A DNA stretch of 52,187 bases from a virus. A program made the translations under genes and the position numbers. Positions 1 to 52,187 of the stretch are shown here, piece by piece. The DNA is taken from positions 1-52,187 of IMG/VR virus record IMGVR_UViG_3300034198_002436; one strand, 5' to 3'. The notes below the pieces were generated by a model. The model saw only the letters and a program-made list of their open reading frames with translations, was not told the DNA's origin and did no database searches. The stretch's first letter is position 1, and the number at the start of each line of letters is the position of its first letter.

Positions 1-225
1 CTCATTAGGTGCTATCAGTGTAGCAGTGTAGCTACAGCCCACGAAATTTAAATTTTTTATTCTGTATCTTTATATACAGAATAGTACTTTTTTTTTATTT
101 TTTTAATATCTAGCTACATAGCTACACTAAAAAGAAAGAAACCTAGATACAGTAAGGAAAGTAGGCAGATTTCTACCTACATTTTCCCTACACTAGACCT
201 ACACAAAAACCTCTCTAGCTACACT
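1..225. repeat. Inverted box-array element A (left copy)
   Basis: Non-coding region at the 3' end of the leftward small-gene operon. The 8-bp box AGTGTAGC occurs twice in tandem on the + strand (17-24, 25-32). Related boxes in the opposite orientation lie at 113-120, 121-128, 176-183, 187-194, 198-205 and 218-225, the last overlapping the stop of the first gene. Between the two sets is an A/T core with a perfect hairpin (58-83) and T-runs (88-104). Read on the - strand, the layout matches element B at 5655-5948: measured from the box at 128, the boxes at 120, 183 and 194 sit at the same distances as their counterparts. The window edge probably removes further boxes. Function unknown; origin, partition site or operator array are possibilities. 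Confidence 0.75.
58..104 (+). terminator. Perfect hairpin plus T-tract in element A
   Basis: A 10-bp perfect stem (58-67 with 74-83, 6-nt loop) is followed 4 nt later by runs of 9 and 7 T separated by one A. For rightward transcription this has intrinsic-terminator shape. It could equally be part of an origin core. Confidence 0.4.
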
Positions 226-424
226 AATTCAAGATAATGTCCTCGTAGCTGAAGCCATGGAGCAAAACTCTGCTAACAGAATGTAACTCAAAATCCTTCA
301 CCCCTGCATCGTACATGTACTGGTACACATTGGTAACGAAATCCTGAAACTTGCATCCTTCAACGCAGTCTACTACCCATAACTCCGCTATACCTTTTAC
401 TTCTACTAATGCTCTGTAATCCAT
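224..424 (-). CDS. Hypothetical protein, 66 aa
   Basis: Last gene of the leftward small-gene operon. It is acidic to neutral, begins MDYRALVEVKG and has two cysteines near residues 20-24 (VDCVEGCKF), with no recognised domain. ATG is preceded by AAACC, the leader type shared by several genes in this operon, with no Shine-Dalgarno. Its stop codon overlaps the last box of element A. Function unknown; probably an early, host-directed or accessory protein given its size and position. Confidence 0.6.
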   Translation of the reverse strand: MDYRALVEVKGIAELWVVDCVEGCKFQDFVTNVYQYMYDAGVKDFELHSVSRVLLHGFSYEDIILN

Positions 425-429
425 GGTTT

Positions 430-672
430 CTAGTATTTATAGTTAATGTCCTCTAATACATCGTGAGGTACAGACAGATGTATCCATCCGTCCTCAAACG
501 AGTACTCGTTTATAAAGATACTCCTAATTAATTTCGATCGAATCAGCCCAAGGTTATCCAGGGCATTACGTTCGTCCAACTCATTGGTGAATATTGAAAA
601 CATTACGTCCACATCACCGCTCAGTTTTTGGTCAGAGTTACTGATGAACTCTTTCAGTTGGTCTATGTTCAT
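430..672 (-). CDS. Hypothetical protein, 80 aa
   Basis: Small protein starting MNIDQLKEFIS, with a basic middle (LIRSKLIRSIF) and an acidic C-terminus. No recognised domain. Its ATG overlaps the stop of the upstream gene by 4 nt (ATGA), so translation is probably coupled. It lies inside the leftward operon of tiny genes. Confidence 0.6.
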   Translation of the reverse strand: MNIDQLKEFISNSDQKLSGDVDVMFSIFTNELDERNALDNLGLIRSKLIRSIFINEYSFEDGWIHLSVPHDVLEDINYKY

Positions 673-1016
673 GGCTTCTGATTGTTATAAAATTCTATGA
701 AACTTAATACTGCTTGGTACATAGCTTCAATGCTATCATCTGCAAATTCTTGGAATAATATGTTATTGCCTCTAGTTATTAAGCACTGCCAATCTTTATC
801 AACTCGCTGAAAATTTTTCTCTACACTATATCCAAGTAACTCAATTTTTTCTAATACGGGCATTAATGAATCATATGATTCGTGGAAACATAATTCATCT
901 TTTGTCCACCAATCTCCGCTATTGTACTTTCTAATGTAATACTCATTTGTTTGTTTATCAAAATGATATTGCATGAATTCTGCAATAATTTGGTTATTTT
1001 CTTCTATTGTGCTCAT
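669..1016 (-). CDS. Hypothetical protein, 115 aa
   Basis: Starts MSTIEENNQIIAEFMQYHF. The protein is rich in aromatic and acidic residues with repeated Tyr/Trp (YYIRKYNSGDWWTKDEL). This text resembles the small 'working-copy' proteins common in Bacteroidota phages, but no function is known. The ATG is preceded by CCACCACC. It overlaps the next gene by 4 nt, and visibly A/T-rich codons are used. Confidence 0.65.
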   Translation of the reverse strand: MSTIEENNQIIAEFMQYHFDKQTNEYYIRKYNSGDWWTKDELCFHESYDSLMPVLEKIELLGYSVEKNFQRVDKDWQCLITRGNNILFQEFADDSIEAMYQAVLSFIEFYNNQKP

Positions 1017-1027
1017 GGTGGTGGGTT

Positions 1028-1210
1028 TTAAAGTTCTCGTTCAATTGCTTCGATGATTTCTCCTTGAATGTATTCACTAGTCAATATTATGTCAAGGACT
1101 CTCATTCGCTCTTCATTACTGCCTTCACTTATGTCGTTAATGCTCCATAAGTTATCTACATAGAATCCTGCATCTCGCAAGACTGCTTTTGCTTTCTCAA
1201 TTTCGTTCAT
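1028..1210 (-). CDS. Hypothetical protein, 60 aa
   Basis: A mostly helical, acidic small protein (MNEIEKAKAVLRDAGFYVDN). No recognised family. The leader ends AAACACC before ATG, as in the neighbours at 1232-1570 and 3609-3716. Part of the leftward operon. Confidence 0.6.
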   Translation of the reverse strand: MNEIEKAKAVLRDAGFYVDNLWSINDISEGSNEERMRVLDIILTSEYIQGEIIEAIEREL

Positions 1211-1231
1211 GGTGTTTGTTTTAAATTTCGT

Positions 1232-1570
1232 TTAAATTAATGGCTTGTTAATGTCTCTTAGCATTGCTGCTTTTTCATAGTCTTCTACTTCACATGCTAC
1301 GTCTATTGCATTTTGTATATCATCTACCTTTACGAATAAATTTGAACTAGTCCAACCTAATCCTCTATTATCAGAAATTGCTCCACAATTACAACCTACT
1401 GTATTATGTTTTATCTTAGGCATACCTATATTAATTTTTTGACTGCCACAACTGTGACAATATAAAACATCTTTTACTGTGTATATATTTCCTTTTACTC
1501 TTTTTTGAGCATAATCTCCTTGTGGGTTTGTCAATGCAATTACTTGGTCTCCAATTTTTAAGTTGTTCAT
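1232..1570 (-). CDS. Putative zinc-binding protein with UVR-like C-terminal motif, 112 aa
   Basis: The N-terminal half looks like a small beta domain (MNNLKIGDQVIALTNP). A cysteine cluster follows (CHSCGS near residue 40, then CNCG near residue 60), suggesting a zinc ribbon. Residues about 85-107 (IDVACEVEDYEKAAMLRDIN) resemble the UVR motif of UvrB/UvrC and Clp-associated proteins, a helical hairpin used for protein-protein contact. The cysteines and helix text are seen directly; the motif assignment rests on pattern memory. The leader is ACACC-ATG. Function unknown; an interaction with host UvrABC or Clp partners is only a speculation. Confidence 0.6.
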   Translation of the reverse strand: MNNLKIGDQVIALTNPQGDYAQKRVKGNIYTVKDVLYCHSCGSQKINIGMPKIKHNTVGCNCGAISDNRGLGWTSSNLFVKVDDIQNAIDVACEVEDYEKAAMLRDINKPLI

Positions 1571-1620
1571 GGTGTAAAATGTTTGTGATTAGAAATACTG
1601 ACATGCCTAACATACATGCG

Positions 1621-1845
1621 TTAATGGTTATCAATATCATGCTCCGTGATATAAAGTTTCTCTTGTGTGTACTTCGTCTCAAAATAAAACTCGTCCTCGT
1701 CCTCGTTGTATACATCAGAGACATCGTCCCCGATTGATTGTCTTACCTCAGCAAATCTTGCCCGAGCTGCTGCCAGATCCAAAAACACCTCGTGCTCGTT
1801 GTAGTCTTGACAGTCTTGTGTGTGGTGGAAAATATATAGTCTCAT
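1621..1845 (-). CDS. Hypothetical acidic protein, 74 aa
   Basis: Starts MRLYIFHHTQDCQDYNEHEV, with an Asp/Glu-rich centre (DVYNEDEDEFYF). No recognised domain. Its ATG overlaps the stop of the upstream 144-aa gene by 4 nt, and its leader is AAGTTATG, the second leader type in this operon. Strong acidity is typical of DNA-mimic or inhibitor proteins, but nothing specific supports such a role here. Confidence 0.6.
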   Translation of the reverse strand: MRLYIFHHTQDCQDYNEHEVFLDLAAARARFAEVRQSIGDDVSDVYNEDEDEFYFETKYTQEKLYITEHDIDNH

Positions 1846-2276
1846 AACTTAATAAATTGATAGTCATACTCACCTTCGTATGCCCCGATAAAAAACTCAT
1901 TCTCTTCTAACTCGTCTTCGTCCAAGTCGTCCTCGTCAGCTTGCTCAATAGCATCTGCTTTCAATTCCTCAAACTCTTCATTTGTACACGGTATTACATC
2001 GTTGATGTTTGTTAAAACAACAAATCCATACAAGTCTTCTGTAATCTCGAATGCTTGATATGAACCGCTGTCGCCATCTTCCTCAAACTCCCAAATAAAA
2101 CCGTTATCACGTTCAGATACCATAGCTTCATCTAGCGTTTGATGTTCGTTCATTAACTCAAAGCATTTCGCCTTTGCTGATGCATCGTTCTCTAGATTGA
2201 AAATTCCCTCTAAAATATTCTCAGTTGAATACCCATCACCATTCCAAGTACTCAATATTGCAAATCTCTTATTCAT
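1842..2276 (-). CDS. Hypothetical acidic protein, 144 aa
   Basis: Starts MNKRFAILSTWNGDGYSTEN. Residues about 100-130 are almost all Asp/Glu (EQADEDDLDEDELEENEFF). The N-terminal 90 residues look like a compact alpha/beta fold, but no family is recognised. It sits between the Cys-rich 234-aa gene and the 74-aa acidic gene, which it overlaps. The leader is GAGTTATG. Net charge is strongly negative. Confidence 0.65.
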   Translation of the reverse strand: MNKRFAILSTWNGDGYSTENILEGIFNLENDASAKAKCFELMNEHQTLDEAMVSERDNGFIWEFEEDGDSGSYQAFEITEDLYGFVVLTNINDVIPCTNEEFEELKADAIEQADEDDLDEDELEENEFFIGAYEGEYDYQFIKL

Positions 2277-2279
2277 AAC

Positions 2280-2984
2280 TCAATGATTTAAAATGTAAAT
2301 ACTTGTACTACCTTTGCCTTGTGTACCACTGCACAAGCCACATTTACTGCAACTGCTCTTGTATCCGCTCTCCTTACTCGCAGGACAGTTAACAATGCCG
2401 TCAATCTTTGTCTCTGTTGCGATGTAGCTACGATATCCCTTCTCTCTTGCAATCTGCTCTCCTTCGATGTCGTGAACGCTAGCCATGAAGAATTCTCCTA
2501 GGTTTGTCTTCTCCCATTGATGTGTGTATCCCGTATGGTTTTGTGCTGATTCAACCATTGCTTTGATTAACTCAATAGGATGTAAGCTAGGCTCTCCATA
2601 CGTCCCGAATCGAACGAACGTATCCTTTGCCATATTAACGGCATCAGCTTGCATACTATCGTTGAACATAGGTAACTCATCGAACGTAGCAAACTCCTTC
2701 GCAATGCTCTTCAACATGCTTATGAATCCTACATATTGGTTGAACTTGTGTGTGTAGCATTTGCCAAACTCGTTGAACGGACAATCTAAACAGTTACTGT
2801 CAGCATTACTGAAAAATTCACGCATCCCAGTGTTCTTGCCTTCTGCGATTAACTCAAACTGTTTTCTTGAGAATGTGTACGTTTGTACGATTCTACGTTT
2901 CTTGTCTGCTTCTATCTTGTCATTGCTTGTAGTGTTCTTGTTAATCACTTGCAATGTATCTCCAATTCTAAATACTAATCTCAT
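2280..2984 (-). CDS. Cys-rich phage protein resembling GP88/DUF7227-type proteins, 234 aa
   Basis: Start chosen at 2984 (MRLVFRIGDT) because an upstream in-frame ATG at 3017 would overlap the preceding gene by 50 nt, while this ATG has the AGTTATG leader of its neighbours. Cysteines form two clusters: C65, C68, C76 (NCLDCPFNEFGKC) and C200, C212, C215, C218 (CPAS...CSKCGLC). Between them is RFGTYGEPSLHP and GYTHQW. This combination recalls the phage GP88-like family, in which paired Cys clusters suggest an iron-sulfur or zinc site. The biochemical role is not established. Largest gene of the island operon. Confidence 0.55.
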   Translation of the reverse strand: MRLVFRIGDTLQVINKNTTSNDKIEADKKRRIVQTYTFSRKQFELIAEGKNTGMREFFSNADSNCLDCPFNEFGKCYTHKFNQYVGFISMLKSIAKEFATFDELPMFNDSMQADAVNMAKDTFVRFGTYGEPSLHPIELIKAMVESAQNHTGYTHQWEKTNLGEFFMASVHDIEGEQIAREKGYRSYIATETKIDGIVNCPASKESGYKSSCSKCGLCSGTQGKGSTSIYILNH

Positions 2985-3231
2985 AACTAAATGTGTTTGT
3001 GTCGTCTGCATAACCAATCATATGTGTGCCTAATCTAAACACATATCTATCACCAATGCTTGTTACGTTTAATACTCTCAATAACTCTGCGCTCTCACCT
3101 TTTTCAACGATGAAATATTCGAAGTGATATTCGCCATCGAACATCGTTAACTCGTCATGTGGCTTTAATGAGCGGATGCCTACACTAAGAACATCGTCCT
3201 CAATGTAAGCTAAGATTTCAATTTTTTTCAT
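2968..3231 (-). CDS. Hypothetical protein, 87 aa
   Basis: Starts MKKIEILAYIEDDVLSVGIR and appears beta-rich (alternating hydrophobic strands), with no recognised domain. Its ATG overlaps the upstream gene stop by 4 nt, and its 3' end overlaps the start of the Cys-rich gene by 17 nt. Function unknown. Confidence 0.6.
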   Translation of the reverse strand: MKKIEILAYIEDDVLSVGIRSLKPHDELTMFDGEYHFEYFIVEKGESAELLRVLNVTSIGDRYVFRLGTHMIGYADDTNTFSYEISI

Positions 3232-3485
3232 ACTAACAAATGTTTGATGTCACCACTACCGATAACATATGTGAATAACTCGTCTATGATTGTCTCTTCG
3301 TCCTTCTCTGTTCTGTCTAATAAGATGAATTGCTCATCGTCATCCTCAAAGATGAATCTGCCTTCAACCATTCCATCAGTGCTCGCAACATCCCAAACGA
3401 TGTTACCACCCCAATTCGCACTACTATGCTGAACAACTCTTCTGTAGTGCTTGTCTAAATATCGTCTAACGTTACTTGCTCTCAT
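3228..3485 (-). CDS. Hypothetical protein, 85 aa
   Basis: Basic N-terminus (MRASNVRRYLDKHYRRV) followed by an acidic C-terminal half (EDDDEQFILLDRTEKDEET). No family recognised. The ATG lies inside the end of the 48-aa ORF upstream (14-nt overlap), so coupled translation is likely. Confidence 0.55.
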   Translation of the reverse strand: MRASNVRRYLDKHYRRVVQHSSANWGGNIVWDVASTDGMVEGRFIFEDDDEQFILLDRTEKDEETIIDELFTYVIGSGDIKHLLV

Positions 3486-3618
3486 ATCTTCCTTGGTATT
3501 TATATCCTAATCTCTCCATGTAATCAACGAAATTCTCAAAGTGAGATTCGTTCTTAAAAGACTTAGAGAAGCATCTCTGCTTCCCTTGTCTATCCTTGAA
3601 TAACAATGTTACTTCCAT
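3472..3618 (-). CDS. Small hypothetical protein, 48 aa
   Basis: A short ORF, MEVTLLFKDRQGKQRCFSKS..., ending RYESK. Beta-hairpin-like start, then a helix (FENFVDYMERLGYK). It is supported by position: its start overlaps the end of the 35-aa ORF upstream and its end overlaps the start of the 85-aa gene downstream, giving a chain of nested start/stop overlaps. Function unknown. Confidence 0.5.
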   Translation of the reverse strand: MEVTLLFKDRQGKQRCFSKSFKNESHFENFVDYMERLGYKYQGRYESK

Positions 3619-3716
3619 AATGTAATGCGTCTTTTACTTTCTTTAACTTTAACTCCGTTCAAGTAATATCCAATTACTTCGTAGTTACCTTCGATTTTCT
3701 CAATTTTTGTGCTCAT
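3609..3716 (-). CDS. Small hypothetical protein, 35 aa (first gene of leftward operon)
   Basis: Short ORF MSTKIEKIEGNYEVIGYYLN..., ending TLWK. It starts after ACACACACC-ATG, the same leader type as genes at 1016, 1210 and 1570, and overlaps the next ORF by 10 nt. Upstream lies about 1 kb with no convincing gene, so this is the likely first gene of the leftward unit. The short length makes it uncertain. Confidence 0.45.
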   Translation of the reverse strand: MSTKIEKIEGNYEVIGYYLNGVKVKESKRRITLWK

Positions 3717-3800
3717 GGTGTGTGTATTATGTGGTTATGTCCCCTCATTACTCAGATTGTCTGCAATCCCTTGGGAAGATTGTATGGTAATTTAAACAAG

Positions 3801-3821
3801 ACTAGTACTATTATTACTAGT
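3801..3821. repeat. 7-bp inverted repeat
   Basis: ACTAGTA and TACTAGT are separated by 7 nt in the divergent intergenic region. Possible operator or small hairpin; no function shown. Confidence 0.4.
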
Positions 3822-4523
3822 GTTACGTCATGCCGATGGTTTGATTATTCATGTGCATAAGCGATAGGATTTCCACCTACGAAGATGCTATATAAAGACT
3901 TACTACTTCTGTTGTTGTTGCACCCTATCTCATGTGCCGATAAACAAAGAACTTGTAACTGCTTGACTGAACTACTCACTACTTGCTTGTAACTGTTTCA
4001 ACTCGAAAGAAGGCATGCTATAAGGTTTCGTACTTCATTCGCTATATGTATACTGATTCATCATCGTAACACCATGTAGCTTGTCAAATTAAAGTCAGCT
4101 CGTTTGCTTGACTGAAACAAACATACTGCATCAATTCCGATTGTGCAAGAACTTTTAGACGAACACCGTCAGATTTTCGACAAAGGACAGATATCCTTCG
4201 ACGAACGTTTTTATACATTTGGTTTTTTACTGTACTTACCATGGTAGGTATAGGTTTCAATGTATTCATATATTCACATTTGAATAGGTTTGTGATTAGT
4301 GGAAGGGGCGAAGGGATAAAGCTATCTTTAAGAACGTCTAACCAATTGATAAACTTCACGGCATAAAATCGTCACGGAATGCAGATAGGTTGACTGTTCA
4401 TTATTGGTTTCCTAAATGCAGAACGATAGACATGCGCCCACAACCCCCGTAAACATTGAGCTGTCCTATAATTAGTATTATGTTAAGTAGGATGCTATGT
4501 GATTGATACACAAGCAGTTAGAC

Positions 4524-4543
4524 CTATAGGCATGCACCTATAG
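4524..4543. repeat. 7-bp perfect inverted repeat
   Basis: CTATAGG and CCTATAG flank CATGCA, giving a 20-bp hairpin or dyad about 150 bp upstream of the promoter for the gene at 4715. Possible operator. Confidence 0.45.
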
Positions 4544-4678
4544 CAAAAAGCCAAAAACATTCAGCCTATCGAACGAAAACAAGACCCCCCTACCTAAAAT
4601 TAATCGACTTTCCCTGATCGCCTCATCACGTCTAACCCCCATATTACCCAACACCCACAAACATCTAATATTTTTTAT

Positions 4679-4686
4679 TACTTTTG
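4679..4686 (+). promoter_or_regulatory. Bacteroidota -7 box (TACTTTTG)
   Basis: Matches TANNTTTG, 28 nt before the ATG at 4715. No clear -33 TTG at the expected spacing. Confidence 0.5.
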
Positions 4687-4714
4687 TACTGTTAACATAT
4701 AAAAACATAACGTT

Positions 4715-5200
4715 ATGCCAAAGAATCCAACCCCAGGAAAAGGGATCATGCAGTACGCACCAGTTACTACAAAAAAGAAAGGAACAACTGGAAGTACATC
4801 ATCAGTAGCAAGTAAAGGAACTTCTACTGCTAAATCAAAAACAGTTACTAAGAAGCCTACTACTTCTACTACACCTGCTACTAAAAAACAAGTAACAAAA
4901 GTTACTACTTTACCAACTGTTACAGTTACAGCTAAAAAAACTACACCTGCTACCACATCTACACCTGCTAAAACTGTAAGTAAAGATCCATACAGATACT
5001 TTATGGGGTCAACAGATATGTCTAAGCCAACTAAAGAGGTAAACAGAGCTACATATGAAAAAGGTGGAATGCCTCGTACAAAAATTGCAGCTACTGACAC
5101 TGCTTCTATTAACAACTTGACTAGATCAAGAGGGAACATGTCATCAAAAGGGTACATTCCATTAACTACAAAAACTACACCTACTAAGAAAAAAAGCTAA
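4715..5200 (+). CDS. Lys/Thr/Ser-rich low-complexity basic protein, 161 aa
   Basis: Residues about 15-95 consist almost only of Thr, Lys, Ser, Ala and Pro (TTKKKGTTGSTSSVASKGTS and similar). The C-terminal 65 residues are more ordered (DPYRYFMGSTDMSKPTKEV), and the end is again basic (TPTKKKS). The high positive charge suggests a DNA- or RNA-binding or virion-packed protein; this is inference, and no family is recognised. It has its own -7 box (4679-4686) and an intrinsic terminator (5226-5254), so it looks monocistronic and possibly strongly expressed. Confidence 0.65.
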   Translation: MPKNPTPGKGIMQYAPVTTKKKGTTGSTSSVASKGTSTAKSKTVTKKPTTSTTPATKKQVTKVTTLPTVTVTAKKTTPATTSTPAKTVSKDPYRYFMGSTDMSKPTKEVNRATYEKGGMPRTKIAATDTASINNLTRSRGNMSSKGYIPLTTKTTPTKKKS

Positions 5201-5225
5201 GTACTTACCGCTTATCAATTTTTTG

Positions 5226-5254
5226 AACCGCTCATCACAATGGGCGGTTTTTTT
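5226..5254 (+). terminator. Intrinsic terminator after 4715-5200
   Basis: AACCGC (5226-5231) pairs with GCGGTT (5244-5249), followed by a T-run to 5254. It lies 25 nt after the stop codon. Confidence 0.75.
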
Positions 5255-5268
5255 GTTTTAATGTGTTG

Positions 5269-5276
5269 TATGTTTG
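5269..5276 (+). promoter_or_regulatory. Bacteroidota -7 box (TATGTTTG)
   Basis: TANNTTTG match between the terminator at 5254 and the ATG at 5303 (26 nt gap). Separate transcription of the secreted-protein gene is likely. Confidence 0.5.
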
Positions 5277-5302
5277 TGTCATAACTTTAAAACACAGTAA
5301 TT

Positions 5303-5656
5303 ATGAAATCAATTATTTTAACAATCGGGTTTGTGTTGACATCAATGGTAGCAATGTCACAGTATGTAGAAACAGTTAGAGGAGAGTTTCCTTTAGAGGA
5401 GTGGTATGAACTTCCTGGAGAAGAATTCAAAGGAGTTAAGTACATTAGTTCAACAGATGAATGGATTAAGGAGTACTTAAAAGAAATGTTGGCAGAGGAC
5501 AGCATCTCTATCGAAAAGCCAGACATCATCAAAAGAAAAAACACTGAGGTATTTTACATGGAGTGGAATTATAAAACGTTGGACGGTCACGAGGTAAATG
5601 TGAGCTACATTAACAACGGATTTATCTCAGATATCTCTTTTTACCAGTTCGATTAG
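5303..5656 (+). CDS. Secreted hypothetical protein, 117 aa
   Basis: Clear N-terminal signal peptide: MKSIILTIGFVLTSMVAMSQ, with likely cleavage after Ser19 or Gln20, a form common in flavobacterial exported proteins. The mature part is acidic (GEFPLEEWYELPGEEFKG) and has no recognised domain; the C-terminus looks beta-rich. It probably acts in the periplasm or at the cell surface, for example in superinfection exclusion or host modification, but this is inference. Its stop overlaps the first box of element B. Confidence 0.65.
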   Translation: MKSIILTIGFVLTSMVAMSQYVETVRGEFPLEEWYELPGEEFKGVKYISSTDEWIKEYLKEMLAEDSISIEKPDIIKRKNTEVFYMEWNYKTLDGHEVNVSYINNGFISDISFYQFD

Positions 5657-5948
5657 TGTAGCTAGACCCCCAAAAATGTAGCAAATGAAGGTTTAGTGTA
5701 GCTCCAATGTAGGTAGAAAAATCGCTATATCCCTTTGTTTATCTATCTTTTACTACTTTTAGTGTAGCTATGTAGTAGTAGTAGTAAGAAAAAAAAAAAA
5801 AACTTTTATATAAGATTTTATATAAAAGAAATAAAAATAAAAAATTTCGGCCTAACGGCTACATTGCAGCACAAAAGGGGTTAACGCACTGATAATCAGC
5901 AGACAAGCCCTACATTTTAGCTACACTGGAGCTACACTGGCCTACATT
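5655..5948. repeat. Inverted box-array element B (right copy)
   Basis: Six forward boxes of consensus ARTGTAGS lie at 5655, 5675, 5695, 5706, 5761 and 5769. Five reverse boxes lie at 5858, 5909, 5920, 5931 and 5941 (starts). Between them is a 14-A run (5789-5802), a perfect 11-bp hairpin (5803-5828) and an A/T-rich core. The reverse complement of element A shares AATGTAGGTAGAAA and TTTTAGTGTAGCTATGTAG with it. Its spacings relative to 5761 (-66, -55, 0, +8, then +96 versus +97) agree, apart from a 9-nt shift of the two outermost boxes. It is therefore a diverged inverted copy of element A. Confidence 0.8.
5789..5828 (-). terminator. 11-bp A/T hairpin with A14 run in element B
   Basis: The stem 5803-5813 / 5818-5828 with loop GATT is perfect but all A/T apart from its closing base pair. 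The adjacent A14 reads as a T-tract for leftward transcription, so the structure would face into the island, mirroring the one in element A. It may instead be an origin core. Confidence 0.4.
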
Positions 5949-5980: not shown

Positions 5981-6286
5981 ATGAAAATGGGAGAAAAAAT
6001 AACAGCAAAAAGACAGATGATCTCACCGTCAGGGTCTATACTGACTGTTGGTAACGAGTACACAGTTTGTGGTATTCAAGAGGACTACTTTTTAATTGTC
6101 AACGACAGAGGTAACCACCATTCGTTCGACAAGTCGACGTTCGACAAGCACTTTGAGAAGCCAAATGAGTTCAAGAAGGCATGCGAGCCGTTGATGAAGT
6201 ACTTGTCGGAGAACCATCACCCACACGTAAGGGTTATTGTAGACTGTAACACGGCAGAGATGCTAAGACGATGTCAAGTACTTTGA
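5981..6286 (+). CDS. Small conserved phage protein with NHHPH motif, probable +1 frameshift at the 3' end
   Basis: The N-terminal half (residues 1-55) looks like a small beta barrel (GEKITAKRQMISPSGSILTV). The second half carries CEPLMKYLSENHHPHVRVIV, a motif typical of short hypothetical phage proteins that end in an acidic segment. In the annotated frame the protein ends abruptly (AEMLRRCQVL). Skipping one base near 6266 would read DDVKYFESDEFILD and stop at 6309-6311, just before the next gene's ATG at 6313, which fits the family end better. Either an indel, an assembly error or programmed +1 frameshifting. Function unknown. Confidence 0.65.
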   Translation: MKMGEKITAKRQMISPSGSILTVGNEYTVCGIQEDYFLIVNDRGNHHSFDKSTFDKHFEKPNEFKKACEPLMKYLSENHHPHVRVIVDCNTAEMLRRCQVL

Positions 6287-7375: not shown

Positions 7376-8956
7376 ATGATCGTAAAACAACTTTTTTTCG
7401 GAGAAAACGGAAGAGAAAAGCTGATTACTGGTATCGAGAAGATATCGGGAGCTGTAAAGAGTACACTTGGGCCGGCAGGTAACACGGCAATCCTGGAGTC
7501 AGAAAACCACATCGGTGGGTTCACCGTTACAAAGGACGGTGTGACGGTCGCTAAGGCGATCAACCTAGAGGACCCGGTGGAGAACATGGCTGTACAGATG
7601 GTACGCCAGGCGGCAGACAGAACAGCAACAGTTGCTGGAGATGGGACAACCACTAGCGTGGTTTTGACTGAGGCTATTATCAAGCAGGCAATAAATCGGA
7701 TCAACGAGGACAACAACACTATCGAGGTGTTACGTAACATCACTACAATAAGCCAGGAGATGGACAAGTACTTGTCTAAGATGTCTAAGAAGGTATCAGG
7801 GAAGAAGCTTGTGGACGTTGCGACGGTGTCAGCTAACAATGACAAGGTGATTGGTTCAATGATCGCTGACGTGTACAGTAAGGTCGGCATGGTGACAGTT
7901 GAGAACTCACAGACATCAGACACGTACTTCGAGATTATTGATGGTATTAAGATTGACCGTGGGTTCAGTAGTAAGTACTTCGTGAACGAGCATAAGAAGA
8001 ACGAGTGTGTGCTAGACAACCCATACGTGTTGATCACGGACCACGAGATTTCTAACCTACAGAGTCTAGAGGGTATCCTTGCACCAATCATTCAGAACAA
8101 CCGCTCGTTACTGATTATCGGTCAGCTGGACGCTAAGTCATTGGCGACGATAAACCTTAACGTTGCGAAGGGTAACCTTAAGGCGTGTAACATCATCCCA
8201 CCACAGTTCGGGTACAAGAAGGAGGAGGTCATGACGGACCTTGCTATTGCACTTAACGGTCACTACTACTCTGAGCGCACTGGAGACAACTTGGCACTTG
8301 TTGAGTTGAGCGGTCTTGGTCGTGCGGCTAAGGTGATCGTTGGTCAGGACATGACGACCATCATACCATTGAACGAGGAGAACCCAGCACTTGACGAGCA
8401 CATCGCAAAGCTTAACGAGTCACGTTCGTTGAGTACTAACCCAAGAGACATTGAGTTCATTGACGAGCGTATCGCTAACATCAACGGTGGTATTGGTATC
8501 ATCTATGTTGGAGCTAACTCTGACATCGAGCAGAAGGAGCTACGTGACCGTATCGACGACTCTGTGTGTGCGGTTAGAGCAGCTATTGAGGAGGGAATAC
8601 TTCCTGGTGGTGGGATTGCACTTATCAACGTGTGCAGACACATCAAGGACAGTGAGGACACTGACATGAACACAGCGGTTGAGATCATGATGAACGCTGT
8701 TATGGAGCCATTCATGCAGATCATTAAGAACGCTGGCATTGATCCAATGTCGATATCATTAAACATTATAGGTAAGGGAGACGGGTACGGATTCAACGTT
8801 AAAACTAAGCAGTACGGTGACATGATGTCGATGGGTATTATTGATCCGGCTAAGGTTACGAAGAACGCTCTTAAGAACGCTGTGTCTGTAGCTACTACGA
8901 TACTTAACTCATCAGTTATTGTAACAAACATAAGAGAATATGAAGGCAATAGGTAA
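7376..8956 (+). CDS. groEL: Phage-encoded GroEL-like chaperonin, 526 aa
   Basis: Full-length group I chaperonin of near-bacterial length. The ATP site is clear: KSTLGPAGNTAI near residue 29 and AGDGTTT with D89 (D87 in E. coli). The catalytic Asp of the intermediate domain is D395 within RIDDSVCAVRAA, followed by EEGILPGGGIAL. The GGM-repeat tail of bacterial GroEL is absent; the protein ends NIREYEGNR. It presumably folds capsid or tail proteins with the co-chaperonin encoded immediately downstream. By eye it has a higher G+C than the genes at 6.3-6.9 kb. No clean TANNTTTG box precedes it, but direct repeats do. Confidence 0.95.
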   Translation: MIVKQLFFGENGREKLITGIEKISGAVKSTLGPAGNTAILESENHIGGFTVTKDGVTVAKAINLEDPVENMAVQMVRQAADRTATVAGDGTTTSVVLTEAIIKQAINRINEDNNTIEVLRNITTISQEMDKYLSKMSKKVSGKKLVDVATVSANNDKVIGSMIADVYSKVGMVTVENSQTSDTYFEIIDGIKIDRGFSSKYFVNEHKKNECVLDNPYVLITDHEISNLQSLEGILAPIIQNNRSLLIIGQLDAKSLATINLNVAKGNLKACNIIPPQFGYKKEEVMTDLAIALNGHYYSERTGDNLALVELSGLGRAAKVIVGQDMTTIIPLNEENPALDEHIAKLNESRSLSTNPRDIEFIDERIANINGGIGIIYVGANSDIEQKELRDRIDDSVCAVRAAIEEGILPGGGIALINVCRHIKDSEDTDMNTAVEIMMNAVMEPFMQIIKNAGIDPMSISLNIIGKGDGYGFNVKTKQYGDMMSMGIIDPAKVTKNALKNAVSVATTILNSSVIVTNIREYEGNR

Positions 8957-9206
8957 ATACATTCTTATCTCCCCATGTGAGATCAAGGAGGAGAAATCAA
9001 AATCGGGGCTGTTCTTGACGGCCTCTGAGTCAGTCAACACAAGATACAAGGACGCTATCGTCGTTGAGCCAGGTGCTGACGTTGTAGACTCGATAAAGGT
9101 GGGAACAAAAATCTCATACGACTCTGTTCAGGGTCACGACATAAAGATCGACGACGTTGTGTACAGAGTTATTTTGGAGCGTGACGTTGCCTTACTTCTT
9201 GATTAA
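8940..9206 (+). CDS. groES: Phage-encoded GroES-like co-chaperonin, 88 aa
   Basis: Starts MKAIGKYILISPCEIKEEKS. The mobile-loop region is KEEKSKSGLFLTASE, with LFL in place of the usual I-V/I-L contact triplet. The barrel shows RYKDAIVVEPGADVVD, KVGTKISYDS and DVVYRVILERDVALLLD, close to the standard GroES plan, though shorter than the bacterial protein (about 95 aa). It overlaps groEL by 17 nt, and the order groEL-groES is the reverse of the bacterial operon. Its 3' end overlaps the convergent gene at 9169-9666 by 38 bp. Confidence 0.88.
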   Translation: MKAIGKYILISPCEIKEEKSKSGLFLTASESVNTRYKDAIVVEPGADVVDSIKVGTKISYDSVQGHDIKIDDVVYRVILERDVALLLD

Positions 9207-9666
9207 ATCTTTTAATAGCCATCGCATGTACCTTATCTGTGTACGTTGCGGTGGCTTTAAATATTGGGTTATGCTGAGGTGTCTCAGATATCGGTTCCTC
9301 ACCGTTTAGTTTCTTATAGATAGAGGCACACATCTTACGAGCCTTAAACGTCAGCTCGTACTTCTTTTCCTCGCCCCAATTCTTTTTCACCCAGTTATGT
9401 ATAAAACCATCCCTCATCAGTCGAGCGAAGCGTTGGTTATCCCACTTGAATATATTCTCGTACTCTAGGTACTTTGATCTGGTGAACAGACCTTCTGTGT
9501 ACAAGAAAAGCAGCATATCAATATCAGCTGATGACAGATTGTACTTCTTTCTTGCCCAGTACTTTACTACCTTCCAGTACTTGAGGTAGTCGTTCTTTGG
9601 TAGTGCCCTATCGTATATTACATTTCGATAGCGTGTTCTTTTAATTACTCTTTTGATTGGATACAT
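9169..9666 (-). CDS. Winged-helix (MarR-like) phage protein, 165 aa
   Basis: The central part (residues about 45-115: LSSADIDMLLFLYTEGLFTR, RFARLMRDGFI, YELTFKARKMCASIYKKLNG) has the helix-turn-helix plus wing layout of MarR-like regulators. Similar proteins occur in many Bacteroidota phages. The N-terminus is very basic (PIKRVIKRTRYRNVIYDR). It is the only leftward gene within the long rightward block and shares a compact divergent promoter region with the gene at 9706. A transcriptional switch controlling early/late genes is a reasonable inference. Confidence 0.65.
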   Translation of the reverse strand: MYPIKRVIKRTRYRNVIYDRALPKNDYLKYWKVVKYWARKKYNLSSADIDMLLFLYTEGLFTRSKYLEYENIFKWDNQRFARLMRDGFIHNWVKKNWGEEKKYELTFKARKMCASIYKKLNGEEPISETPQHNPIFKATATYTDKVHAMAIKRFNQEVRQRHAPK

Positions 9667-47234: not shown

Positions 47235-47443
47235 CTGCTTACTTCTATTTTTGGATAATTAATTAAATGGTAATAAACTTCATAATTATATCTTTTACCT
47301 CCTTTAAAGTGATCTGGATCTTCATCTATCATTTCTTGACATTTAGAGATAGCATTTTTTTTAGCAGCATCGAAATCTTTATCAGGTTCAAACACCCACA
47401 TTAGTCTATTTGCTCTCTCTTTTGGACTAACTACGTGGCTCAT
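47231..47443 (-). CDS. Hypothetical protein, 70 aa
   Basis: Starts MSHVVSPKERANRLMWVFEP. It contains KNAISKCQEMIDEDPDHFKG, a pattern met in short Bacteroidota phage proteins (an amphipathic helix after a Lys/Arg-rich start). Function unknown. Overlaps the GIY-YIG gene by 4 nt. A/T-rich. Confidence 0.6.
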   Translation of the reverse strand: MSHVVSPKERANRLMWVFEPDKDFDAAKKNAISKCQEMIDEDPDHFKGGKRYNYEVYYHLINYPKIEVSR

Positions 47444-48165
47444 TTCAATTCTTGTTTTAATTTTTGAATATAAATAAATCTTTCATTTCCTCTTTGCATC
47501 ATACTTTTAATACTTGAGTATTTCATTGCATTCATCTCACTAGCTTCTTTTAATGATTGGTAACTGACTCCAGTTGTCGTATCTAAAACAATCCTAGACC
47601 TAGGATGCTCAGAACCTCTTTTGTTTATTTTAGTCATTCTTTCTGAATGTTCTTTTTTCCATTCATCTGACCTTTTAACTCCAAACATTGGATTCTTTTC
47701 ACCACTTAAAAATTCTTTGCCTTTATTCCAAGGCTCTCTACCTTTCATGTGATGACCTTTTTCTTTTATCCTTTTTTTAGTACACTCTGAAATAATTTTC
47801 TTATTCGCATCACTTATAGTTTTCCCTCTGTGCACATTACCAATTTTTCTTTTGGTTTCTTCCGACATACAGATATATGTTTCATTAATTTTTGGTAGTA
47901 GTAAGTTAAGTCCATTTTCACCTATGCAATTATACATATCTCCATAATACGCTTCATAGTAATTCCTATATGAAATATCACATTCATGTATTACTTTAAA
48001 TACATGATTTTCCCATCCATATTTTTTAAGTGAATTAAATATTTTAACTTGACCTTTTACTCTTAAAGTTTTATATCTATAAATCCTATCATTCAAATTA
48101 ACCGTAGAACCAACATAAAAATTACCAACTGGGTTTTTTATTAGATAGATAAAAACATTTCTCAT
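47440..48165 (-). CDS. GIY-YIG homing-type endonuclease, 241 aa
   Basis: The N-terminal nuclease (residues 4-95) has FIYLIKNPVGNFYVGSTVNL with Arg27 as the conserved catalytic arginine, and a Glu within YYEAYYGDMY. NUMOD-type DNA-binding repeats follow: SEETKRKIGNVHRGK (near 103) and EKNPMFGVKRSDEWKKEHSE (near 155). Then comes a NUMOD1-like helix-turn-helix (IVLDTTTGVSYQSLKEASEM, near 192). Full length and apparently intact. It is free-standing and markedly A/T-richer than the helicase genes to its right, consistent with a later insertion. Its own -7 box lies directly upstream. Confidence 0.85.
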   Translation of the reverse strand: MRNVFIYLIKNPVGNFYVGSTVNLNDRIYRYKTLRVKGQVKIFNSLKKYGWENHVFKVIHECDISYRNYYEAYYGDMYNCIGENGLNLLLPKINETYICMSEETKRKIGNVHRGKTISDANKKIISECTKKRIKEKGHHMKGREPWNKGKEFLSGEKNPMFGVKRSDEWKKEHSERMTKINKRGSEHPRSRIVLDTTTGVSYQSLKEASEMNAMKYSSIKSMMQRGNERFIYIQKLKQELK

Positions 48166-50226: not shown

Positions 50227-52187
50227 TTAAAAACCTAAATCTGTTTGCTCGTCGTGCTTGATGTTGAACTTGATCATCATCCCTTGTGCGCTCCTATACT
50301 TAACCGGTGGCGTGTTGTACATAAACTCACCGTACAGATGTATCCAATGGTAGAACTTATTAAGTGCCAGTGTGTACTTACCTCTAGGACTGTAGTCAGG
50401 GTTCTGATTGATAAAGTGTTGATACAAGTCCTGACCTAACACCTCGCTACCAACCTTAGTCTTCTCGTTGTACCTATCCTTAGCCCACTCGTAGAAGTCC
50501 ATGGATGTCTCTGCGATGAACTTACGCTCACGAAGGTTCTTGAACTTACTTTTACGAAGACCTTTCTTAAGGTACATCTGAAGATTAGATATCATGTAGT
50601 TGTCGAACTTAAGCCACTCCTCCTTACTCCAACCGGTGAACAGCTGATGACCGAACTCGTCCTGAGGTGTGTGGTTCTTACTGTAGTGCTGTGCAAACTC
50701 AAGCTCCCACTTACGTCTCTCAAAACTGTTACCAGCTCCCTTGATCGCATAGTTGGTCGTGATAATAATCTTAGGCGAGTCCTCAAACTCTAGCTTAATC
50801 TCGTCCTTGTTCTTCTTCTCAAGCGTTATACCCTCTGTTATTATGGAGAATAGACGCTCAAAGTCAAAGTAACGGTTAACATCATCGAACACAAGTATCT
50901 GAGTATCAGCTGACACACGTTGGTATGGGAACGACTTTTGGAACGAGAACCCCTTACCGTCAATTATTACACCTTTCTTCATGTAGTTAATAGCCGACAC
51001 ATAGATACCTTTACCAGTACCACCCTCAGGGTTGTCAGATATAACCTCGTCGTTAATAATAACGGCAGGACAAAAACTAGCAGGCTTGTGGCTGTGTAAT
51101 AAGTAACCAGCCGTCGACTCAATCGATCGAATTCGATCAGGCTCGTTGCCACCAATGTTGTTGATGAATCTCTTAAATTCACAATCACTAAAGTCTGTGA
51201 CATTGAAGTCACGGTTGATACACTGCTTCTGCCAAATGTATCCGTCGATGTTCATGTAGTCAATCGTCTCAACCTTGTCCTTGGTAACCTTTACCGCACA
51301 GTTGCGGAAGTAGATGTGAGCTGTGTCCTCAGTGTCCCTAACTATCTTAGGAGATATTGAGTCAAGGAACGACAAGTGGTCGTCCTTAAATAGCTTGGTC
51401 TTGTCAGCAAAGTAGTTGTAGATACTCTTGTCGTCCAACTCGTACAAGTACTTTAGCACATGGTCTTTAATGATGTCCTCAAAGGCATCTGATATGATGT
51501 TGTTACCAATCCTTACAAACACGAACGACTTACCTATGTAGTACTTATAGTAGCCATTAGACTCCAGAAAGTCCTTGTACATGTGGTTGACGTGCTTAAC
51601 GATGCCCTTACTGCTCTTAGCCCAGAACTCGTTGCTGTACTCTATGTTACTTATAACAGACTTGGCAATGTCTCCATGTATCTTCGTAACGTCCTCAGCA
51701 GGAACGCCTTGCTTGACCATGTTAACGATGTTGTCAATCTTCTCAGTGTCCTCGTAGAACTTAGTGCCGTGAGCCTCGCTGTTCTTGTATGCACTGTCGA
51801 CTATTACTGTTATCTCTCCAATGGTGAACCCATCAGACTGGAACGTAGACAGAGTGCTCAATGCCTCTGACTTACTTATGCCGTACTCATTAAAGGCTGC
51901 CGCTAGTACGAACGTGTTGTTGTTACGCTGTCCTGCAACCAGTCCAAAGTTATTGTTCCACCAGATCATAAGCCTTCTTATAATCTCGTTAGGGTTGTCT
52001 AGCTTAATTGTCTGACGACTAGTAGCAGAGTCGAACGTTTGGTGCTCCTCTACAATAATATTACTCCAGGTGTCACTAAACTCGTTGACATATATCTCAG
52101 GGTCGTATGACTCAAAGCATACACGACTGATGTTCTTTGACGTTGTGTCGAACTCAGCCATGTTGTAGTGCTTCTCTAAAGACAAGA
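50227..52187 (-). CDS. D5-type primase-helicase (SF3), 5' truncated by the window edge
   Basis: Visible residues are about 650. Near the visible start, SRVCFESYDPEIYVN resembles the end of a primase-polymerase domain. A PriCT-like region follows (NTFVLAAAFNEYGISKSEAL, near residue 91). The SF3 ATPase core has Walker A GGTGKG (388-393), Walker B ILVFDD (430-435) and sensor KIIITTNY (near 470). The frame is open to the edge, and an apparent start would be a TTG two bases inside it. The missing upstream part is expected to hold the primase active site. It would unwind and prime phage DNA. Confidence 0.85.
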   Translation of the reverse strand, partial: LSLEKHYNMAEFDTTSKNISRVCFESYDPEIYVNEFSDTWSNIIVEEHQTFDSATSRQTIKLDNPNEIIRRLMIWWNNNFGLVAGQRNNNTFVLAAAFNEYGISKSEALSTLSTFQSDGFTIGEITVIVDSAYKNSEAHGTKFYEDTEKIDNIVNMVKQGVPAEDVTKIHGDIAKSVISNIEYSNEFWAKSSKGIVKHVNHMYKDFLESNGYYKYYIGKSFVFVRIGNNIISDAFEDIIKDHVLKYLYELDDKSIYNYFADKTKLFKDDHLSFLDSISPKIVRDTEDTAHIYFRNCAVKVTKDKVETIDYMNIDGYIWQKQCINRDFNVTDFSDCEFKRFINNIGGNEPDRIRSIESTAGYLLHSHKPASFCPAVIINDEVISDNPEGGTGKGIYVSAINYMKKGVIIDGKGFSFQKSFPYQRVSADTQILVFDDVNRYFDFERLFSIITEGITLEKKNKDEIKLEFEDSPKIIITTNYAIKGAGNSFERRKWELEFAQHYSKNHTPQDEFGHQLFTGWSKEEWLKFDNYMISNLQMYLKKGLRKSKFKNLRERKFIAETSMDFYEWAKDRYNEKTKVGSEVLGQDLYQHFINQNPDYSPRGKYTLALNKFYHWIHLYGEFMYNTPPVKYRSAQGMMIKFNIKHDEQTDLGF

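Follow-up and report, generated by a model that had tools for sequence, protein, structure and literature searches.

What is the function of two inverted, diverged copies of a short-box array in a virus that infects Bacteroidota bacteria? The arrays lie at positions 1–225 (array A, as reverse complement) and 5655–5948 (array B) of the IMG/VR record IMGVR_UViG_3300034198_002436, which was analysed over its full length of 52,187 nt and is referred to here as the window; it is a complete virus record but a linear fragment rather than a complete genome. The initial annotation, made from the sequence alone, recognized the arrays and offered four readings of them: a duplicated replication origin, a partition site, an operator for a phage DNA-binding protein and the boundary of a mobile island. 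Our analysis favours the first of these. The conserved arrays, their unstable centres and their association with a primase-helicase indicate that each array is probably an iteron-type replication origin, bound by the phage's own primase-helicase and present twice per genome.

The two arrays are homologous both within and outside their boxes, as revealed by MAFFT alignment of the reverse complement of 1–225 with 5655–5948, and the sequences of their centres differ. The window contains 27 copies of the box ARTGTAGS where 7.4 would be expected (maximum of 15 among 100 shuffles), and 16 of these copies fall within arrays A and B, showing that the boxes are concentrated there rather than equally dense elsewhere. 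Counted from the main box, the relaxed word TGTAG starts at −97, −77, −66, −55, 0 and +8 in array A (reverse complement) and −106, −86, −66, −55, 0 and +8 in array B, in agreement with the spacings in register and the single 9-nt shift that had been described. For array B, six right-pointing and five left-pointing boxes had been reported; the five left-pointing boxes are all exact, whereas the right-pointing ones comprise five exact boxes and the degenerate TATGTAGT at 5769. Array A contains four left-pointing and two right-pointing exact copies, together with the degenerate boxes TATGTAGC (113–120) and TGTGTAGG (198–205). Its description as a second copy of the element is correct as to homology, but one arm of the copy is truncated where the contig ends, and anything outside the opposing inner boxes at 17–32 would lie beyond base 1. 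The last gene of the window runs past the right end, and its homologues carry ~130 extra N-terminal residues. Because this gene is truncated and the contig is not circular, base 1 represents a break within array A; a circular contig was ruled out by the continuation of the gene beyond the end. Each array starts where the gene in front of it stops: its first box, AGTGTAGC, also provides the TAG of that unrelated open reading frame (ORF; 224–424 and 5303–5656, respectively).

No 80-nt stretches in the 52 kb of the window are less stable than the AT-rich centres of the two arrays, the least stable starting at 5768 (array B) and the second least at 44 (array A). Array centres fall within the lowest 0.6% of stability in all five genomes tested (the window and four others). 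The hairpins that had been noted are perfect stems of 10 bp in array A and 11 bp in array B, both significant against shuffled sequences (P = 0.005 and P < 0.005, respectively). A universal family hairpin was ruled out, as significance is reached only in arrays A and B of the window and in the sister contig L082. In addition, 11 of 34 family arrays contain an exact IHF consensus, where 1.5 would be expected (maximum of 7 in 300 shuffles); it often sits in the spacer that separates the inner from the outer boxes. No phage-encoded HU/IHF gene was found in the family phages, and a host IHF/HU-type protein would therefore be needed at these sites.

The arrays are kept in relatives of the window phage. 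In contig L082, array B is retained nearly base for base, and its hairpin is rewritten with pairing retained. A search of IMG/VR with the exact array words matched only this sister contig (L082/L086), and DNA similarity searches of the arrays against phage records gave no real match; distant relatives were searched for any clustered word, with no sequence assumed. Instead of the TGTAG of the window, the boxes of other phages contain TGCTG, TGACG, TGTTG or TGTCG. Both arrays within one genome use one word, and the words differ between genomes: the word is AGTGCTGA in G004, TATGTTGG in G011, ACTGACGA in G014 and TATGTCGA in MW202828 and L117, and in each of these five its own word recurs in a second array 3–11 kb away. 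An exact paired-cluster scan of whole genomes detected two arrays in six of them (the window, G004, G011, G014, G035 and MW202828), with scores of 27–51. By comparison, most other genomes scored 13–21 and the phages elemoA and phi40 scored 16–17; a score of 42 in G033 arises from its terminal repeat. Two arrays are also present in L117, the second just upstream of groEL, and were read by eye in G037, G040 and G041. In both MW202828 and L117, the primase-helicase gene and groEL each have one of the two arrays in front of them. Among 20 arrays measured, the left boxes mostly point right and the right boxes mostly point left, and the inner gap spans 59–106 nt in 18 of the 20; the gaps are mostly 65–82% AT (58–82% over all measured arrays). 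An exact-word cluster search of 78 further loci gave 31 positives and 8 in shuffled controls, and because of the latter, single matches among these loci are not counted as arrays.

The association of the arrays with the primase-helicase gene extends to smaller phages. IMG/VR contigs that are related through the primase-helicase alone (~40% identity; contigs of up to ~30 kb) carry one array, which ends ~45 nt before the primase-helicase start and contains boxes such as CGTGACG, ATGACGATA and TGACAAC. By hand count, ~39 of the 50 smaller-relative loci whose upstream sequence is long enough have an array at most 650 nt upstream of the gene; in some of the others, as read in L036 and L041, array and gene are separated by an HNH-type gene. 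An array also lies directly upstream of the primase-helicase gene in MW202828 and in L117, L122–L125 and L130, which are contigs filed under bacterial genomes. One scan of IMG/VR gave at least 575 matches to the primase-helicase. Furthermore, the BT4734-like primase family PF08800 was detected in 15 of 15 family records versus neither of elemoA and phi40, which have homologous virion genes and other replication genes and in which the paired-cluster scan detected no array pair exceeding background.

The domain composition of the primase-helicase is consistent with a role as initiator. A full-length homologue contains BT4734-like_N and PriCT_1 domains, and both PF08800 and PF08708 score above cut-off in L002. 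The SF3-type motifs GGTGKG, VFDDV and TTN, read from the alignment, provide Walker A, Walker B and motif C. The C-terminal domain (50227–50604 in the window) is modelled as a winged helix, with a predicted local distance difference test score of ~88–95 over the domain. A blind scan of 17 taxa, in which box distance was compared with window-wise protein distance, places the peak of covariation on the wing of this winged helix (r = 0.58; 0 of 1000 permutations), a lead suggesting that the box word covaries with the initiator wing. In the recognition helix, an Arg-to-Gln substitution, noticed after the fact, accompanies the change from TGACG to TGACA boxes (L016/L031 versus L077/L078/L125).

Taken as replication origins, the arrays may work as follows. 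The primase-helicase would use its C-terminal domain to bind the inward-pointing boxes of both arms, with two assemblies facing each other across the AT-rich centre; the centre would then melt, and the helicase would load itself and prime DNA synthesis. Bending of the spacer in many relatives is probably the task of an IHF/HU-type protein of the host. The second copy of the element may be another origin or a bound site beside an origin, acting as a fork barrier as proposed for oriR of SPP1 or as a looping partner as in P4. The same binding may additionally regulate the following promoter.

Several observations weigh against this assignment. Array A is not adjacent to the primase-helicase gene in the window, and several relatives have no second array detectable by exact words. 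The model of the full protein is poor in the helicase core, and a Foldseek search with the C-terminal model returned winged-helix proteins among its best matches, none of them significant. The wing–box covariation was downgraded as proof after thinning tests: with one taxon per box, the maximum covariation has P = 0.51, and without the CAACACTT group the peak shifts to residues 227–242. In addition, the GC-skew minima, which fall between the arrays, coincide with the divergence of transcription, and they are not independent evidence for an origin because they are confounded with gene direction.

Our comparison with known systems reveals close parallels in phage-inducible chromosomal islands (PICIs), including the Staphylococcus aureus pathogenicity islands (SaPIs). 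As in the phages studied here, each of these elements has its own iteron; the island helicase loads itself, is in some cases joined to a primase and carries an iteron-binding domain at its C-terminus (PMC6092414, PMC7581432); iterons are bound by the C-terminal domain in SaPI Rep and in Cch2 (PMC7581432). Linkage of the proposed origin to a gene for such a helicase, the candidate initiator, is likewise found here. The island origin, however, lies immediately 3' of the initiator gene, whereas the array is located 5' in MW202828, L016–L081 and L117. Further differences are that the arrays occur in ~60-kb phages (two copies) and ~30-kb phages rather than in islands, and with a primase of the BT4734-like family and no integrase. 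The window phage has terminase, portal and virion genes, and PF00589 was not detected, in contrast to an integrase-bearing, phage-inducible island. The element thus resembles a PICI origin, but the phage is no PICI: the origin-like element stands in phages, upstream of the initiator, with another primase family, and is doubled.

The doubling is shared with SPP1, in which two separated arrays (oriL and oriR) likewise combine repeats with an AT-rich unwinding element in one genome, and in which a proposed role of the second is to halt forks and so set off the synthesis of concatemers (PMC6316719). SPP1 differs in dividing the work between gp38, which binds the origin, a helicase loader and a helicase of the DnaB type, whereas a single SF3/D5-like primase-helicase fusion is the candidate here; the array separation of 3–11 kb is a further difference. 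The satellite phage P4 has two separated cis sites, ori and crr, with the same repeats and the alpha protein. In P4, too, primase and helicase form one protein; its C-terminal domain recognizes the origin, as is proposed for the primase-helicase here. The P4 primase belongs to another family, and in the phages studied here both sites have the full plan of two arms and an AT-rich centre. The P4 ori depends on alpha (PMC6092414). At the putative origin of SCCmec, short direct repeats (AAGTG) adjoin the gene of the D5-like helicase Cch2 and are bound by the C-terminal domain of this protein in isolation (PMC7581432); by comparison with our arrays, there are only three direct repeats, in a cassette element with a separate CCPol primase.

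Alternatively, though we consider this rather unlikely, the arrays may be operators through which the two following operons are controlled, either by a transcription factor of the phage or by the primase-helicase. The arrays head transcription units, and host-type −7 motifs (TAnnTTTG) were found by eye after array B in MW202828, G011, G014, G037 and G041 and after arrays in L024, L077 and L078. Autoregulation of Rep through iterons is common. However, operators leave unexplained the conserved AT-rich centre with its inward-facing arms and the joint loss of array and primase in elemoA and phi40. For the operator option in the initial annotation, the suggested partner, the product of 9169–9666, is an improbable one, since it is also encoded by elemoA and phi40, which lack this primase-helicase and have no array pair exceeding background. 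This small protein (minus strand), which had been called a winged-helix protein, corresponds to phrog_17028 and is present family-wide. An operator role is compatible with origin function, and the two are not exclusive.

The arrays are very improbable as RNA-level sites, such as nut or put antitermination elements of the two divergent early operons. In the window, each array is sense to its own operon and has a hairpin, as such sites would be. Nevertheless, the hairpin is significant in the window lineage only, the inverted and unequally spaced boxes form no continuous stems, and the arrays precede the start of the primase-helicase gene and coincide with AT-rich minima of the genome. A lambda-type nut site combines a conserved RNA hairpin with a linear box; here the hairpin is not conserved, and Rfam and transfer RNA scans of the window gave no match.

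We regard it as most doubtful that the arrays are recombination sites, whether attP or the ends of an invertible segment, bounding a mobile island as had been suggested. Inverted copies do flank a segment, the contig breaks within array A, and IHF-like sites and arm-type boxes are found in attP as well. On the other hand, no tyrosine integrase (PF00589) was detected in 15 records including the complete MW202828 (control 14/14), arguing against a tyrosine-recombinase attP; the centres of A and B differ where a recombinase core would need to match, and in the smaller relatives only one array is seen near the primase. The segment between the arrays is a divergent early-gene region with no inserted island, and array B stays put in L082 while the adjacent genes change. 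Finally, although clustered short boxes resemble centromere arrays, a partition site is hardly credible, as neither ParA (PF13614) nor ParB (PF02195) of a ParABS system was found in the same 15 records, in which positive controls were detected.

The circular relative MW202828 (60,850 bp), which is of metagenomic origin, as no isolate of this family was found in the phage collection searched, has the same map as the window, namely a leftward replication operon, a divergence, and then rightward groEL-groES and virion genes. The coordinates of the arrays and landmark genes are collected in the table below. Several features of the surrounding sequences were also observed. A gene encoding a GIY-YIG endonuclease with a NUMOD3 motif (a homing-type gene) lies within the replication operon of the window (47440–48165, minus strand). 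In L082, array B is followed by a gene that by eye resembles PAPS reductase (1609–2344), at the place directly occupied by ORF 5981–6286 in the window. GC-rich CGCGTCG-type repeats, unlike the remaining genome, lie immediately to the left of array B in MW202828 (L106, 17650–17900, reverse-complement orientation). All 16 contigs of one primase-helicase-bearing set also encode GroEL. G033 has a terminal direct repeat (44–118 and 58074–58148; L248, L250), and this IMG/VR contig is therefore probably a complete circular genome. The family phage contigs L112–L117 are filed under Aliivibrio, Pseudomonadales and gammaproteobacterial metagenome-assembled genomes, and these filings are probably binning errors because the promoters are of Bacteroidota type.

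Table. Positions of the box arrays, their parts and the landmark genes in the window
Feature	Coordinates	Strand	Remarks
Array A	1..225	-	Left arm truncated by contig end; sense of leftward early operon
A opposing inner boxes (17-24, 25-32)	17..32	+	Anything further out would be past contig end
A AT-rich centre	37..113	unstranded	81% AT; 10-bp perfect hairpin (58-67/74-83)
A inner box pair TATGTAGC/AGTGTAGC	113..128	-	16 nt
A outer boxes (176-183, 187-194, 198-205, 218-225)	176..225	-	198-205 degenerate; last = TAG stop of ORF 224-424
Array B	5655..5948	+	
B outer boxes (5655, 5675, 5695, 5706)	5655..5713	+	First = TAG stop of ORF 5303-5656
B inner box pair (5761; 5769, degenerate)	5761..5776	+	
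B AT-rich centre	5776..5857	unstranded	82% AT; A14 run (5789-5802); 11-bp perfect hairpin (5803-5828)
B opposing boxes (5858, 5909, 5920, 5931, 5941)	5858..5948	-	
B IHF-like site (TATCAGTGCGTTA)	5882..5894	-	One mismatch
groEL	7376..8956	+	Family landmark downstream of array B
Proposed initiator primase-helicase	50227..52185	-	PriCT_1, SF3/D5-like helicase motifs, C-terminal winged helix; N-terminus past contig end

The two-sided origin, with iterons flanking an AT-rich centre, had been described as unique to PICIs. A broader picture, which we put forward tentatively and hold to be possible rather than probable, is that of a widespread lytic phage family with paired PICI-like origins, in which the address word has been repeatedly rewritten in both copies together. 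In this picture, the winged helix of the primase-helicase, and above all its wing, would encode the word and render related phages replication-incompatible, and the groEL-proximal copy would have a separate role as a fork barrier or a late-replication switch. If the origin reading is true, the arrays would give a large and so far uncharacterised phage family an origin model that can be tested, would provide a natural series of initiators and iterons for reading the recognition code of winged helices, and would open a practical route to origins and origin-based replicons for Bacteroidota phages.
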